From NCBI RefSeq assembly GCF_010975035.1, contig NZ_JAAIUV010000002.1, positions 186,001 through 250,000 of the forward strand: 64,000 nt of DNA. The letters run 5' to 3'. The DNA comes from Neobacillus thermocopriae. GTDB lineage: Bacteria; Bacillota; Bacilli; Bacillales; Cytobacillaceae. This document shows positions 50,254 through 56,817 of the stretch, in pieces. A program made the position numbers and the translations under genes. How positions within the stretch are numbered: position 1 is the first letter of the stretch; each line of letters starts with the position of its first letter. The notes under the pieces were generated by a model. That model had not been told where the DNA came from and did not search any database. It saw only the letters and a list, made by a program, of their open reading frames with translations.

Positions 50254-50961
50254 ATGTCAGATGTAAATATTTTTATGGCCATCGGTGCAGGCTTTTTGAG
50301 CTTTATTTCTCCTTGCTGTTTGCCGTTGTATCCAGCTTTCCTATCTTACATAACCGGCATGTCTGTAGGAGAAATAAAATCAGAAAATGCGATGCTACAA
50401 AAACGGAGTCTTTTGCACACTTTGTTTTTCTTAATCGGTTTTTCAGTCATCTTTATCGCCATTGGGTTTGGTACTTCATTCGTGGGAAGCTTTTTCCGGG
50501 AATATAAGGATTTAATCCGCCAATTGGGAGCTATTTTTATTGTTTTCTTTGGTTTAATGATAGTTGGTGTTTTAAAACCAGAGTTTTTGATGAAAGATCG
50601 CCGAATCGAGTTCAAAAACCGTCCCTCTGGATACCTTGGCTCGATACTCATCGGGATGGCATTTGCGGCTGGATGGACACCTTGTACCGGACCAATTTTA
50701 GGATTTGTTATTTCACTTGCAGCATCGAATCCAAGCCAGGGCGTCATTTATATGACAGCCTATTCTCTTGGCTTTGCCGTTCCATTTTTCATTTTATCTT
50801 TCTTTGTTGGTCGACTAAATTGGATTAAGAGAAACAGCGTGAAAATCATGAAAATTGGTGGTACCATCATGATTATCATGGGGGTAGTGCTGTTCTTTGA
50901 TTGGATGACGAAAATCATTCAGTTTTTGTCACCATTATTTGGTGGCTTTACTGGATTTTAA
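50254..50961 (+). CDS. ccdA: Cytochrome c biogenesis protein CcdA
   Basis: This 235-residue membrane protein has six helices and carries reducing equivalents across the membrane. The two active cysteines are in [14 protein letters not shown] near residue 21 and [12 protein letters not shown] near residue 148. In Bacillus it serves cytochrome c maturation and endospore cortex synthesis. ATG 50254 follows TAGGAG. In B. subtilis yneI lies between ccdA and ccdC; here it is absent. Confidence 0.95.
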
Positions 50962-51117: not shown

Positions 51118-51591
51118 ATGAATTACGTTGTTATTTCTTCAATTGGTGCGGTTTTTATGGGGTTTCTTGCACTATATGTCCGCATGAAAGCAGCCAAAAA
51201 ACCAACGAATGTAAGGAAAATCATCATGCCTCCTCTTTTTATGTCCACCGGAGCCTTGATGTACGTCGTGCCTGAATTTCGGTTAACTCCTATAGAAATG
51301 TTAGAGTCGATCGCGCTTGGTATGATTTTTTCCATCCTTTTAATCAAAACCTCGAAATTTGAAATTAGAGACAATGAAATTTATTTAAAACGTTCCAAAG
51401 CGTTTATTTATATCTTGGTAGGTTTGTTAATTTTCCGTTTAGGATTGAAAACGATCTTAAGCTCAACGATCGATTTTGGGGAATTGAGCGGTATGTTTTT
51501 CTTGCTGGCGTTTAGTATGATTGTGCCATGGCGCCTGGCGATGTATCTCTCATATAAAAAGCTTTATCAACAGCTCCATGGGAAAAAGTGA
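51118..51591 (+). CDS. ccdC: CcdC-type membrane protein (YneJ, DUF1453)
   Basis: This 157-residue protein has four to five membrane helices, starting MNYVVISSIGAVFMGFLALY. It is homologous to CcdC/YneJ, which lies with ccdA in Bacillus and is linked to cytochrome c maturation. GAAGGA six bases before ATG 51118 supports the start. It is separated from ccdA by 156 bases with a terminator and no yneI response-regulator gene. Confidence 0.88.
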   Translation: MNYVVISSIGAVFMGFLALYVRMKAAKKPTNVRKIIMPPLFMSTGALMYVVPEFRLTPIEMLESIALGMIFSILLIKTSKFEIRDNEIYLKRSKAFIYILVGLLIFRLGLKTILSSTIDFGELSGMFFLLAFSMIVPWRLAMYLSYKKLYQQLHGKK

Positions 51592-52151: not shown

Positions 52152-52183
52152 AAAAAAAAACCGTCACCTAAAAAGGGACGGTC
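52152..52183 (-). terminator. Minus-strand terminator after the DUF2621 gene
   Basis: On the minus strand, ACCGTC and GACGGT form a stem, extended by partly matched CC/GT, and are followed by eight T residues. Confidence 0.82.
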
Positions 52184-52608
52184 TAGAATAAATGCTCATA
52201 TGGTGTAATATCAATTTTATTTTCAAATAGTTTTTTACGTAAAAATTTATGATCACGTTTGGGTGTCGCTTGGATGTAACCGCGAATCACCAAATCCTCG
52301 GTAATCTTCGGAACCTTTTCTTTTAAGGCAAGTTCGCCAATTTTACCGGCAATTTTATGTCTGGCTACATCTCGGAATAATTCAGGAACAGGACTGACAA
52401 GATCCTCAAGGAGCGCTTTTTCTTCAGGGCCCCATAAATGCTGAGATTCTTTCACATAATACTCTTCCCAATCCATTTCAGACTTGCCATCTTCCTTAGG
52501 CATTCGTTTTAAAAATTTCCGGAACATAAAATAGCCGCCAATGGCAAACATGAAAACTAATAGAAAAATCCAAATAAGGATAAACCACAAAAACCAACCT
52601 TGAAGCAT
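52183..52608 (-). CDS. yneK: DUF2621 membrane protein (YneK-like)
   Basis: This 141-residue protein has one N-terminal membrane helix (~5-28) followed by a charged cytosolic domain (MDWEEYYVKESQHLWGPEEKALL, then VPELFRDVARHKIAGKIGELAL). It matches the DUF2621/YneK family that closes the ccdA-yneI-yneJ-yneK group of B. subtilis, here in the opposite orientation. Its function is unknown. Confidence 0.82.
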   Translation of the reverse strand: MLQGWFLWFILIWIFLLVFMFAIGGYFMFRKFLKRMPKEDGKSEMDWEEYYVKESQHLWGPEEKALLEDLVSPVPELFRDVARHKIAGKIGELALKEKVPKITEDLVIRGYIQATPKRDHKFLRKKLFENKIDITPYEHLF

Positions 52609-52730: not shown

Positions 52731-52759
52731 TTGAACAAATGGATGTACTATTGTAATAT
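52731..52759 (+). promoter_or_regulatory. Putative sigma-A promoter of selC
   Basis: TTGAAC (52731-52736) and TAATAT (52754-52759) are 17 bases apart. The expected start lies ~25 bases before the mature tRNA. Confidence 0.6.
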
Positions 52760-52790: not shown

Positions 52791-52887
52791 GGGGCTGGAT
52801 GAGAGACTGGTGTTCTCCACGGTCTTCAAAACCGCTTGAGACCACCGTGTGTGGTCTGGTGGGTTCGATTCCCACACAGTCCCGCCA
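52791..52887 (+). tRNA. selC: tRNA-Sec (selenocysteine tRNA, anticodon UCA)
   Basis: This 97-base tRNA includes an encoded CCA. The acceptor GGGGCTG pairs with CAGTCCC (one G-T); an eighth acceptor pair would be G-A. The D stem is long (GAGAG/TTCTC). The anticodon loop CTTCAAA holds UCA at 52826-52828 and is the standard tRNA-Sec loop. A 7-bp extended variable arm (AGACCAC/GTGGTCT) and T stem GTGGG/CCCAC follow. The G discriminator and UCA anticodon rule out an ordinary serine or tryptophan suppressor reading. It implies SelA, SelB and SelD elsewhere in the genome. Confidence 0.93.
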
Positions 52888-53431: not shown

Positions 53432-53699
53432 TTACCGGAGGGTAAGGTGTGAAAAATTATCATTAGGATCGATGAAGGCTCTAGAAAAATTCTTAATCTG
53501 TTCTATTGCTCTTCCTCTATTATTTATGATATTCCCAACTGGATCGTCTAAGCTTGTAGCAAGGAATTCATCCGTCAGAATACTCCTAATATGATTTCCT
53601 GTTTTTAGAGTCAATATCCTTTCGAGTTTCACCCTCAAATAATTTCACTAATCTAGGTTCTCTCTTGCTAAGTATTTCAATTAAAAGTTCTCTGTTCAT
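53432..53699 (-). pseudogene. Frameshifted small gene (~88 residues)
   Basis: A strong AAGGAG lies before ATG 53699, giving MNRELLIEILSKREPRLVKL then FEGETRKDIDSKNR. The frame then stops, and a second frame continues as HIRSILTDEFLATSLDDPVG, then NNRGRAIEQIKNFSRAFIDP to TAA at 53432. The total of 268 bases is one more than a multiple of three, so a single-base indel near the run of A residues around 53594 explains it. I do not recognise the family. Confidence 0.6.
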
Positions 53700-53824
53700 T
53701 ATGTAAACTCTCCTTCCACGCACTCCTTGTTTTAACCTAAGTTGTTATCACATTACTATACTTAATTAATACAACGACAGCGTGTGAATTTCATCATGTA
53801 AGATCCCATTTAAGTAAGGGAAAG

Positions 53825-53859
53825 ACCAGTGTGATCGAATTTCGTCACACTGGTTTTTT
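53825..53859 (+). terminator. Strong hairpin terminator in the gap before the replication genes
   Basis: ACCAGTGTGA pairs perfectly with TCACACTGGT around TCGAATTTCG and is followed by six T residues. No gene precedes it on the plus strand, so it may be a leftover of a lost gene. The remaining 53860-54102 holds nothing else recognisable. Confidence 0.82.
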
Positions 53860-54102
53860 GTTTATTCCGTTTTGCTTCCTCTTATTGAAACAAATGAACG
53901 CTGATTAGGGCGACTTACCCTTATCACAACCTATGTAGGTGAATATTCCGGTATTTTTCCAAACTCTTATGGTTCATTGGCCAAATGACTTTGAAGATTT
54001 AAATTTTGTCACAAAATTTTCACTATTCCTCCTGTCCTTTTTCTATCTTTCTACCTATATAAGAGTTGAAAAGTATTTTAGTAGAAAGGATAGTGGTTGA
54101 AC

Positions 54103-55092
54103 ATGGCAAGGTATCGAATGGTGCGTACAGAGTTTTGGAAGAATCCGATTGTATTGGAAGAGATGACGCCTGAGGATAAATATTTTTATCTGTATCTTTT
54201 AACCAATCCGTATACGACTCAAATTGGCATTTATCGTATTACGAAAAAACAAATGGCGTTTGATTTAGGGTATTCGATGGAGAGTGTAAATGCATTAATG
54301 GAACGATTCACAAACCATCATCAATTGATTCGATACAATCCAGAAACAAGAGAGCTCGCCATTAAAAATTGGGGAAGAGATAATTTGCAGAAAGGCGGAA
54401 AGCCAATCATGGATTGTATTTTATCTGAATTAAAAGACGTCGAGGACCTTTCTCTTATCCTTTATGTTTCAGAATCGATCCCTAAACAAGAAATTAAAAA
54501 TCTCTATGAATCTTTTTACGAACAAGAAAGGAAATGGATTTCCAAACCCGTTGATAATGACCTAAATAGAACGGAAGAAGAAATGATGGACGATACGTTC
54601 GTGACTCATCATACGATACGTGGGCAAAAACAAAAAGAAAATAAAAAAGAAAAACAAAAACAACAACAAAACCTATATCCAGATGTACAGAGTCATTCGA
54701 ACTTAGATCCATCTTTATCAGTATGCCAACCCTCAGAAGAGGTAAAAGAAATTATTGAGTTTTGGGATGCAAATGGATTTGGAATTTCCAACATATATGC
54801 GAAACAACAGCTGTTGTCGTGGTTAGAGGATTCAAGCTTTTTACAGCCAAAAGAAATGATTTTAAAAGCGATGCATATTGCATGTTTAAACAATAAGCGA
54901 AATTTAGGCTATATTGTTGGGATTCTCAAAAACTGGGAAAATAAATCTCTATTGACAGTAGAAGAAGTGGATTCGTCTAAAGAGTACCCACAGTTTGAGC
55001 ATAAAGCTAGGGGGAAAGCTCATTCTTTTTCTGGCGGAAGAGTGATTCCAAATGAATTTACACTGGACCTCACAGCAGGTGAAGAATCATGA
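54103..55092 (+). CDS. Phage-type replisome organiser (DnaD-like)
   Basis: This 329-residue protein has an N-terminal winged-helix domain (~1-105, MARYRMVRTEFWKNPIVLEEM and IYRITKKQMAFDLGYS), a Lys/Gln-rich low-complexity linker (~168-195) and a C-terminal DnaD/DnaB_2-like domain (~215-280). This is the layout of phage replication organisers that load a helicase. ATG 54103 gives MARYRMV; TTG 54097 has better spacing to AAAGGA and cannot be excluded. Its stop overlaps the helicase start, so the two are coupled. Prophage origin is inferred. Confidence 0.75.
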   Translation: MARYRMVRTEFWKNPIVLEEMTPEDKYFYLYLLTNPYTTQIGIYRITKKQMAFDLGYSMESVNALMERFTNHHQLIRYNPETRELAIKNWGRDNLQKGGKPIMDCILSELKDVEDLSLILYVSESIPKQEIKNLYESFYEQERKWISKPVDNDLNRTEEEMMDDTFVTHHTIRGQKQKENKKEKQKQQQNLYPDVQSHSNLDPSLSVCQPSEEVKEIIEFWDANGFGISNIYAKQQLLSWLEDSSFLQPKEMILKAMHIACLNNKRNLGYIVGILKNWENKSLLTVEEVDSSKEYPQFEHKARGKAHSFSGGRVIPNEFTLDLTAGEES

Positions 55093-56342
55093 GTATCGTT
55101 GAAAAAACGTTTCTAGGAAGCTTGATGAAGGCGGAGTATTTACTCAAAGATACCGTGGTTCGACCCGAACAACTTGAAAGTACGCGCCACCAAGAATTAA
55201 TGCGTCGGTTTCTGGAATTTAACCAAGCTGGAAAAAATATTGATTTGCTTACGTTGACCACTTTACCTGACCTTGAAATATATGGTGGGATGTCCTATCT
55301 TGTTGAGCTCCAATCGTATGCTGATGTAGAAAATATCGACATAATCGAGAAGCTCATCCTTGAACAATGGAAGGAACGGGAGAAGCGGAACATCTTGACG
55401 GTTGCTGCCATGAATGATTGGGAGATTGCAAAGGTGATTACCGAATTAGATAAAATTAACCAGTCGAAGATCGAGGATCATACCCCTTTAACACAATCGT
55501 TAGCCAACATGTATGAAGCACCTTGGGAGGATCGGAAGCCACAGACAAGTGTCACTACAGGAATTAAAAAATTGGACGAAGTAACTGGAGGCTTTCAGAA
55601 AGGGGAAGTAACGATTCTGGCAGCAAGACCATCAATGGGAAAAACGGATGTGATGCTACATTTTGCCAAAATGTCGGGGTGGGCAGGCTATTTGCCGCTT
55701 GTATTTTCTCTGGAAATGCCTGAGAGGCTGATCACATCCCGATTAATAGCTTCAACGGGAGGATTTAACCGGATAAAAATGCGGGATCCGAGAAAAATGC
55801 TTACACCCAAACAGAAGAAGAAATGGTCAGAAGTGATTGCCGATCTCAATGAAACCAATATACAAATTTTTGATGGGGCGGGGCAAACGATCCCGGAAAT
55901 GAGAGCGAAAATACGAAAAATGATGCATCAATATCCATCCAGGAAACCGATCATTTTTATCGATTACTTAACCCTGATCCCATCGGGCCAACTTTACGGA
56001 GGGAATTCCCATTTACAAGTAACCGAAATATCGAAATCTCTCAAAACAATGGCAAAAGATTTTGAATGCCCTGTGATCTGTTTAGCACAACTAAATCGTT
56101 CGGTGGAATCACGAGCGAATAAACGGCCATTAATGTCAGATATTCGGGAATCGGGCAGTGTGGAACAGGATGCAGATGTCATATTGTTCTTATATCGTGA
56201 AGCGTATTATGACAAGGAAACTCAAAATCGTTCACTTGAAATCATTGTGGCGAAAAATCGAAATGGCCCAGTGGGGACCATTTCTGTGAACTACAATGAG
56301 CATACAGGGGCCATTGAGGATGGAAAGGAACAGAGCAACTAG
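55089..56342 (+). CDS. DnaB-like replicative helicase, phage type
   Basis: This 417-residue RecA-fold helicase has a DnaB N-terminal domain (~1-100), a linker, and a C-terminal helicase domain with Walker A LAARPSMGKTDVMLHF near residue 180 and Walker B PIIFIDYLTLI near residue 295. It also has QLNRSVESRANKRPLMSDIR and SGSVEQDADVILFLYR. It overlaps the organiser gene (ATGA). The chromosomal DnaC helicase of Bacillus is ~454 residues and encoded elsewhere, so this is a second, probably prophage-derived helicase. No phage structural genes or integrase lie nearby. Confidence 0.85.
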   Translation: MSIVEKTFLGSLMKAEYLLKDTVVRPEQLESTRHQELMRRFLEFNQAGKNIDLLTLTTLPDLEIYGGMSYLVELQSYADVENIDIIEKLILEQWKEREKRNILTVAAMNDWEIAKVITELDKINQSKIEDHTPLTQSLANMYEAPWEDRKPQTSVTTGIKKLDEVTGGFQKGEVTILAARPSMGKTDVMLHFAKMSGWAGYLPLVFSLEMPERLITSRLIASTGGFNRIKMRDPRKMLTPKQKKKWSEVIADLNETNIQIFDGAGQTIPEMRAKIRKMMHQYPSRKPIIFIDYLTLIPSGQLYGGNSHLQVTEISKSLKTMAKDFECPVICLAQLNRSVESRANKRPLMSDIRESGSVEQDADVILFLYREAYYDKETQNRSLEIIVAKNRNGPVGTISVNYNEHTGAIEDGKEQSN

Positions 56343-56391
56343 CTGGAAAAGGCAATACATAGTTGATAACAAAAAAACGAGGTGTTTCGGT

Positions 56392-56817
56392 ATGTTGGTG
56401 AGTGAGTTGTATGAGGAATGTTTACAATATGGAGTCTCCACTTTGGCACATTGCCTTTATTATTTGCTTATGGAGAAGAAAATTTCATTACATGACGATA
56501 TATCCAACATCCATATTAATCAAATTGATCGGCAAAAAATAGAGGAATTGGTTCGAAAAAATGTGCTGGGGCTTTATAAGATAGGGATCTACTCCTTGAA
56601 GGTGAACAAGAAGGATTTTGTCTTTATTTTTGCAGCTACCAAAGAAGAGGCAATCGAATTTTTTATCAACACCTTTCAACAAGCTCCAATGAACTGTCAC
56701 GAATATCCGCTTGATTTTCAAATAGAAAGAGGAAATGAGGTGATTACGTTTCGGGAGATGAGAAAGGAGTTTGAGCGGTTTCCGGCGATAGCGGGGTATT
56801 TCTGTCGTGAGTGGTGA
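56392..56817 (+). CDS. Unknown protein downstream of the phage-type helicase
   Basis: This 141-residue soluble protein has no membrane segment, with two Cys near the start (ELYEECLQYGVSTLAHCLYY) and a Phe-rich C-terminal half (KKDFVFIFAATKEEAIEFFI). GAGGTG lies 7 bases before ATG 56392. It follows the helicase gene by 49 bases and probably belongs to the same transcript and the same phage-derived block. No family is recognised. Confidence 0.6.
   Translation: MLVSELYEECLQYGVSTLAHCLYYLLMEKKISLHDDISNIHINQIDRQKIEELVRKNVLGLYKIGIYSLKVNKKDFVFIFAATKEEAIEFFINTFQQAPMNCHEYPLDFQIERGNEVITFREMRKEFERFPAIAGYFCREW

Follow-up and report, generated by a model that had tools for sequence, protein, structure and literature searches.

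Two questions are raised by a selenocysteine tRNA gene in the chromosome of Neobacillus thermocopriae: whether a gene with irregular stems, found away from its partner genes, is functional, and why it stands alone. The gene, selC, lies at 52791–52887 on the plus strand of the window, by which is meant the whole stretch of 64,000 nucleotides that was analyzed. It is 97 nt long with its encoded CCA, and its UCA anticodon occupies 52826–52828. ARAGORN called these exact coordinates as tRNA-SeC(tca). Rfam cmscan agreed, with a match to RF01852 over 52791–52883 (E 8.3e-11) whose 64.4 bits exceed the cut-off of 47. The identity and the ends given in a preliminary description of this locus, made from the sequence before any search, are therefore correct, and the covariance score is above threshold. 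The genome (3,208,840 bases in 54 contigs, given as 99.97% complete) contained no second candidate among the 25 RF01852 matches listed, as only one exceeded the cut-off and it was this gene.

Direct reading placed the anticodon loop CUUCAAA at 52824–52830. The UCA anticodon is found together with a long D stem and a long variable arm of 7 bp (AGACCAC/GUGGUCU, 52839–52857), and the gene ends in GCCA, which is discriminator G73 followed by the encoded CCA. When the T loop was used to fix the alignment, the acceptor and T stems were read in an 8/5 register containing 12 standard pairs, with a G-A at pair 8; a 7/5 register was ruled out by this same reading. Pair 8 apart, none of the 12 acceptor and T pairs departed from the standard in more than one of 86 distinct sequences. 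The minimum-energy fold from Vienna was not a cloverleaf, and 5 of 200 shuffles folded as well. The anticodon stem is weak on the D-arm side and carries an extra base. This weakness, which had been described as unusual, is real but is common to relatives: the stem CACRGU/ACYGCUU was present in 25 of 30 loci compared, and two forms of it made up 36 of 85 distinct sequences. The locus is very probably an ordinary, working selC gene.

The second supposed irregularity is acceptor pair 8, in which G8 (52798, plus strand) faces an A (52876, plus strand) that adjoins the T-stem pair 52859–52875. The preliminary description was right that these two bases are apposed as G-A, but not that this is unusual, since 119 of the 126 distinct tRNA-Sec sequences from Bacillota had two purines at pair 8 (G-A 69, A-G 24, G-G 15 and A-A 11), a sample that leaves out the weakest matches in the phylum. 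The 126 sequences were obtained from 208 ARAGORN readings, many of which were one gene fetched twice, after five truncated or decayed readings were taken out. They come from the genus and genomes close to it, from the order's other families, from the 30 loci that scored highest in the phylum, and from 40 lower-ranked places in the phylum hand-picked among the matches listed; one Bacillota locus (L237) gave no ARAGORN tRNA-Sec reading.

The seven exceptions at pair 8 were A-U (4), G-C (2) and G-U (1). Pair 9, the first pair of the T stem, was G-U in six of these seven as compared to 7 of the 119 purine-purine sequences, all of which were G-G at pair 8. Shared ancestry plays into this association, as three of the seven exceptions (L100, L101 and L208) belong to one genus. 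Locus L240 had standard Watson-Crick pairs at both positions 8 and 9. Pair 10 was U-A in all 126 Bacillota sequences.

Outside the phylum, 11 genes were read, from E. coli K-12 and plasmid records, and two more loci gave no reading. The plasmid records were 10 of the 40 listed among 100 that resemble E. coli selC, and two records from other phyla were found among nine similar to the window's selC; the sample thus leans toward these two genes, because similarity to them is how the records were found. Among nine genes from Pseudomonadota, pair 8 was Watson-Crick in eight, the ninth being C-U in Paracoccus, and a wobble was present at pair 9 or 10 in eight, the exception being Phyllobacterium. 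All three of pairs 8–10 were Watson-Crick in Ilyobacter (Fusobacteriota), and in Gemmatirosa (Gemmatimonadota) pair 8 was G-A and pair 10 was U-G. An irregularity at pair 8, 9 or 10 was considered as a rule for all tRNA-Sec and rejected, because L240, Phyllobacterium and Ilyobacter break it.

In E. coli, pairs 8–10 (C7-G66, G49-U65 and C50-G64) are given as SelB identity elements and as EF-Tu antideterminants in two papers (PMC9976931, PMC6267555). Because these are the pairs that reject EF-Tu, the G-A mismatch at pair 8 may be functional, and by analogy Bacillota may meet the same SelB and EF-Tu need with a purine-purine pair. A broader proposal is that the purine-purine pair of Bacillota replaces the E. 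coli box (C-G/G-U/C-G), that the designs (pair 8 purine-purine, or pair 9 G-U) are interchangeable, and that an irregular junction is the signal for SelB to accept and EF-Tu to refuse. We put this forward tentatively, as an idea with rather less than an even chance of being correct. Among the titles and abstract openings of the literature matches listed, none concerned this junction of tRNA-Sec; older work in closed journals may do so.

It is also possible, if somewhat doubtful, that pair 8 was lost neutrally, leaving an effectively 7-bp acceptor stem that the SelB of Bacillota tolerates. tRNA-Sec of the 7/5 type have been described in other bacteria (PMC5330540), and the same three genes that break the rule above manage with no irregularity at pairs 8–10. 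However, pyrimidines are nearly absent from both sides of pair 8, and decay would not readily produce a set of exceptions in which six of seven carry G-U at the very next pair, with the reservation that the pair-8 counts include common descent. Neutral loss bears on pair 8 alone and leaves the identification of selC untouched. The pair-8 counts show that what had seemed an oddity of one tRNA is commonly the rule in the phylum, at the very pairs by which the E. coli tRNA rejects EF-Tu. The features of tRNA-Sec that SelB and EF-Tu recognize thereby become testable in bacteria other than E. coli.

The remaining machinery for selenocysteine decoding was present elsewhere in the genome. The selA gene (C20:30473-31855, 565 bits), selD (C20:32852-33775, 404 bits) and selB (contig C34, 361 bits) each scored over the cut-off of their NCBIfam equivalog models. 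selC is located on contig C12 and is therefore apart from all three, as had been described. A single in-frame TGA is found in selD and, with this codon read as selenocysteine, the protein begins MSEQDKIRLTSFSTKAGUGCKIGPEDL and is preceded by a ribosome-binding site. The UGA is the active-site codon (context STKAGUGCKIGP), and all 17 loci compared, which come from 16 genomes, retain it.

A hairpin 3' of the selD UGA, GCGCAA-GUU-UUGCGC (columns 31–36/40–45), corresponds to the SECIS and was assessed by five measures. All 84 of its cells were paired across 14 distinct sequences (15 rows), and three of the 14 sequences had A-U in place of G-C on both sides. Its covariation score was matched by none of 500 shuffles and by no slid version of the hairpin. 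Of the 500 shuffles, 16 had at least as many pairs changed on both sides and 213 at least as many further pair types, and neither measure is exceptional. The fold of this genome's own copy was moderately better than its shuffles (z −1.66 for 48 nt and −0.74 for 78 nt), which is why the SECIS assignment rests on comparison among sequences. The presence of selA, selB and a UGA-containing selD with a covarying SECIS indicates that selC is not a relic. We hold with high confidence that it is functional and belongs to a complete bacterial system for selenocysteine in Neobacillus. From established knowledge of the pathway, selC would be transcribed from its own promoter and its product charged with serine by SerRS; SelA would then turn the serine into selenocysteine using selenophosphate from SelD, and SelB would deliver the charged tRNA wherever a UGA codon has a SECIS hairpin behind it, as at the active site of selD.

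SelD was also the only selenoprotein found when five families (SelD, Fdh, AhpC-TSA, thioredoxin and CMD) were searched for in-frame stops. A UGA-containing formate dehydrogenase had been expected and did not appear. TIGR01591 (Fdh-alpha) gave nine matches in the genome, all of them below the cut-off and free of in-frame stops. The best scored 662 bits against a cut-off of 666.25, four bits short, and the same protein scored 874.8 against a NasC model whose cut-off is 1100. It carries a cysteine in GRFCMSS, presumably at the catalytic or selenocysteine position expected in Fdh-type proteins; a selenocysteine formate dehydrogenase was thus rejected as a candidate. Seven AhpC-TSA and five thioredoxin matches in the genome were without in-frame stops, and CMD gave no match. 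Neither SelU nor YqeB was found in the genome. A 2006 survey reports that every organism with selenoproteins had FdhA or SelD, and that the SelD-only species it names also make selenouridine (PMC1794560). The lack of a selenocysteine FdhA, SelU and YqeB here suggests either that a further selenoprotein was missed or that the system chiefly makes its own SelD. This is a puzzle, as the one selenoprotein found so far itself makes the selenium donor.

Selenocysteine decoding had been called uncommon in this group of bacteria. The relatives contradict this: selC was present in 59 of 60 Neobacillus genomes and in 18 of 40 genomes from other families of the order, so that 77 of 100 relatives had a tRNA-Sec over the cut-off, with filters that can lose weak matches. 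selA was over the cut-off in 34 of 40 relatives. These counts indicate that selenocysteine decoding is usual in Neobacillus. In an evenly drawn sample of Bacillota, 201 of 299 genomes had a tRNA-Sec. Searches of the open-licence literature found nothing on Neobacillus and selenocysteine, and nothing on the comparative genomics of selenocysteine or selenoproteins in Bacillaceae. A selenocysteine tRNA has now been seen in nearly every sampled member of a Bacillaceae genus.

Upstream of selC, a likely sigma-A promoter, TTGAAC-17-TAATAT, is located at 52731–52759 on the plus strand. Of 74 selC genes or copies of the clade, 59 had a similar site in the 110 nt upstream, as compared to a mean of 2.8 and a maximum of 7 in 200 mononucleotide shuffles, for a pattern that was picked after inspection of the sequences. 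A simple promoter scan did not report the site at 52731–52759. The clade comparison supports the earlier view that selC has a likely promoter of its own. The DUF2621 gene (52183–52608, minus strand; Pfam PF11084, 241.6 bits) ends 0.18 kb from selC on the 5' side. Two further conserved neighbors are ccdC (51118–51591, plus strand; PF07301) and a ccdA-type DsbD_TM gene (50254–50961, plus strand; PF02683). On the 3' side, the nearest ORF of at least 80 amino acids begins at 54097, 1.2 kb away.

The isolation of selC can be compared with gene order in relatives. In one genome from each of two other families of Bacillales (L077 in G024 and L185 in G038), the order was acnA-selA-selD-selB-selC-DUF2621-ccdC-ccdA, with some other genes between. 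Two more genomes (G027 and G028) had acnA, selA, selD, selB and selC together in about 15 kb, and DUF2621 was absent from the stretch. In the window's genome, selA-selD adjoin acnA and selC adjoins DUF2621-ccdC-ccdA. The neighbors of selB on C34 look like SbcC/SbcD, as we take them to be. DUF2621 lay within 3 kb upstream of selC in 66 of 75 clade selC genes or copies (74 loci). In ten Neobacillus genomes with both genes on one contig, selA was 0.63–1.46 Mb from the selC copy beside DUF2621 (a second selC copy in G020 was about 0.46 Mb from selA); in nine genomes of other families with both on one contig, the distance was at most about 33 kb. It appears that selC stands alone because a cluster reaching from acnA to ccdA was split, with each end keeping its old neighbors. 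The acnA-to-ccdA order is suggested by these gene neighborhoods to be ancestral, and the split probably took place before the genus diversified. This order rests on few complete cases, because DUF2621 was in the fetched stretch for 7 of 18 other-family selC genes, stretches that differ in length. The split cluster would explain the orphan look of selC. A small gene between selA and selD (L064:9969-10373), present in 8 of 8 genus loci and unmatched at E 1e-8 in loci from the other families, resembles Hsp20.

The selC gene of E. coli is a classic insertion site, and signs of mobile elements were also found here. Tyrosine recombinases were searched for with four queries (Pfam PF00589), and 64 of the 75 clade genes or copies had at least 1.5 kb of 3' sequence. 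A match was present within 2.5 kb 3' of selC in 37 of the 75; 21 of these matches spanned at least 200 amino acids and the rest were shorter, with one locus counted twice. The recombinases occurred in two arrangements, same strand and convergent (L067, L069, L072, L076, L108-L180). Extra selC copies were present in six genomes (G003, G020, G063, G070, G072 and G073), and extra copies were 5'-truncated or decayed at L069, L076, L165 and L056 (the same as L119). In G003 and G070, duplicate selC copies flank recombinase genes. A third, divergent selC in G072 (L074, on its contig C12) lies beside a divergent selB; this pair may stem from another organism, as the assembly is 91% complete with 6% contamination. 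selC was searched for in phage records without a match. On plasmid pSHB26 of Peribacillus simplex (L256:4001-4080), a selC-like copy matches from base 18 on; its 5' acceptor strand pairs poorly and an annotated tyrosine recombinase lies about 2 kb away. It is possibly the attachment site of a selC-targeting element.

In the window, 54097–56817 (plus strand) holds phage-type replication genes (DnaD-like and DnaB-like helicase; Pfam, PHROGs) and an ORF without a match. The best ten phage matches of the DnaB-like helicase were 36–39% identical, and among the relatives' loci searched it matched only L110 and L145, downstream of selC. It is possible that 54097–56817 is the remnant of an element inserted at selC. 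The stretch between selC and these genes (53432–54096) is AT-rich, with small, broken-looking reading frames.

An integrative element that targets selC could have brought or moved the gene, with such insertions breaking the sel cluster. The 37 recombinase-flanked genes and the duplicate copies in G003 and G070 favor this explanation, but selC keeps DUF2621-ccdC-ccdA beside it within the genus, and 7 of 18 genomes from other families show the same. In addition, no integrase was found 3' of selC in the window (best match E 1.1), and no second copy of the 21-base piece from the 3' end of selC was found there with up to three mismatches; both an adjacent integrase and a duplicated selC end are present in relatives. 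We consider this origin unlikely, and selC itself probably did not move, given its retained neighbors; later insertions may have had a part in separating selB. That selC is instead a non-working relic or decayed copy left by a mobile element, as the decayed copies in relatives and the phage-type genes downstream might suggest, is highly improbable given acceptor pairs that are all intact save the lineage-typical eighth, its standing as the sole selC over the cut-off in a nearly complete assembly, its place beside DUF2621 with a conserved promoter, and intact selA, selB and UGA-containing selD.

The gene itself is thus ordinary and well confirmed, and the main interest lies in the junction pattern and the split cluster, both of which can be set against known systems. 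The cluster has the same sel genes and outer neighbors as those of G024 and G038, whereas here they are split into three places. With the RF01852 consensus, selC shares the UCA anticodon, the long D stem with a 4-nt loop, the long variable arm, G73, the encoded CCA and the 8+5 register; it differs in its G-A at acceptor pair 8, where the consensus line apparently has c-g, and in one extra base in each of the D and anticodon stems. With E. coli selC (NC_000913, L203) it shares the 8+5 arm, G73, CCA and the anticodon loop, whereas pairs 8, 9 and 10 are G-A, G-C and U-A here and C-G, G-U and C-G there. The 7/5 tRNA-Sec, reported in PMC5330540 from Cloacimonetes, some Clostridiales, Gammaproteobacteria and others, resemble it in having only seven standard acceptor-stem pairs and bulged bases in the D and anticodon stems. 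They have seven residues from the T stem to G73, however, whereas this selC has eight on each side, so that 13 layers could stack.
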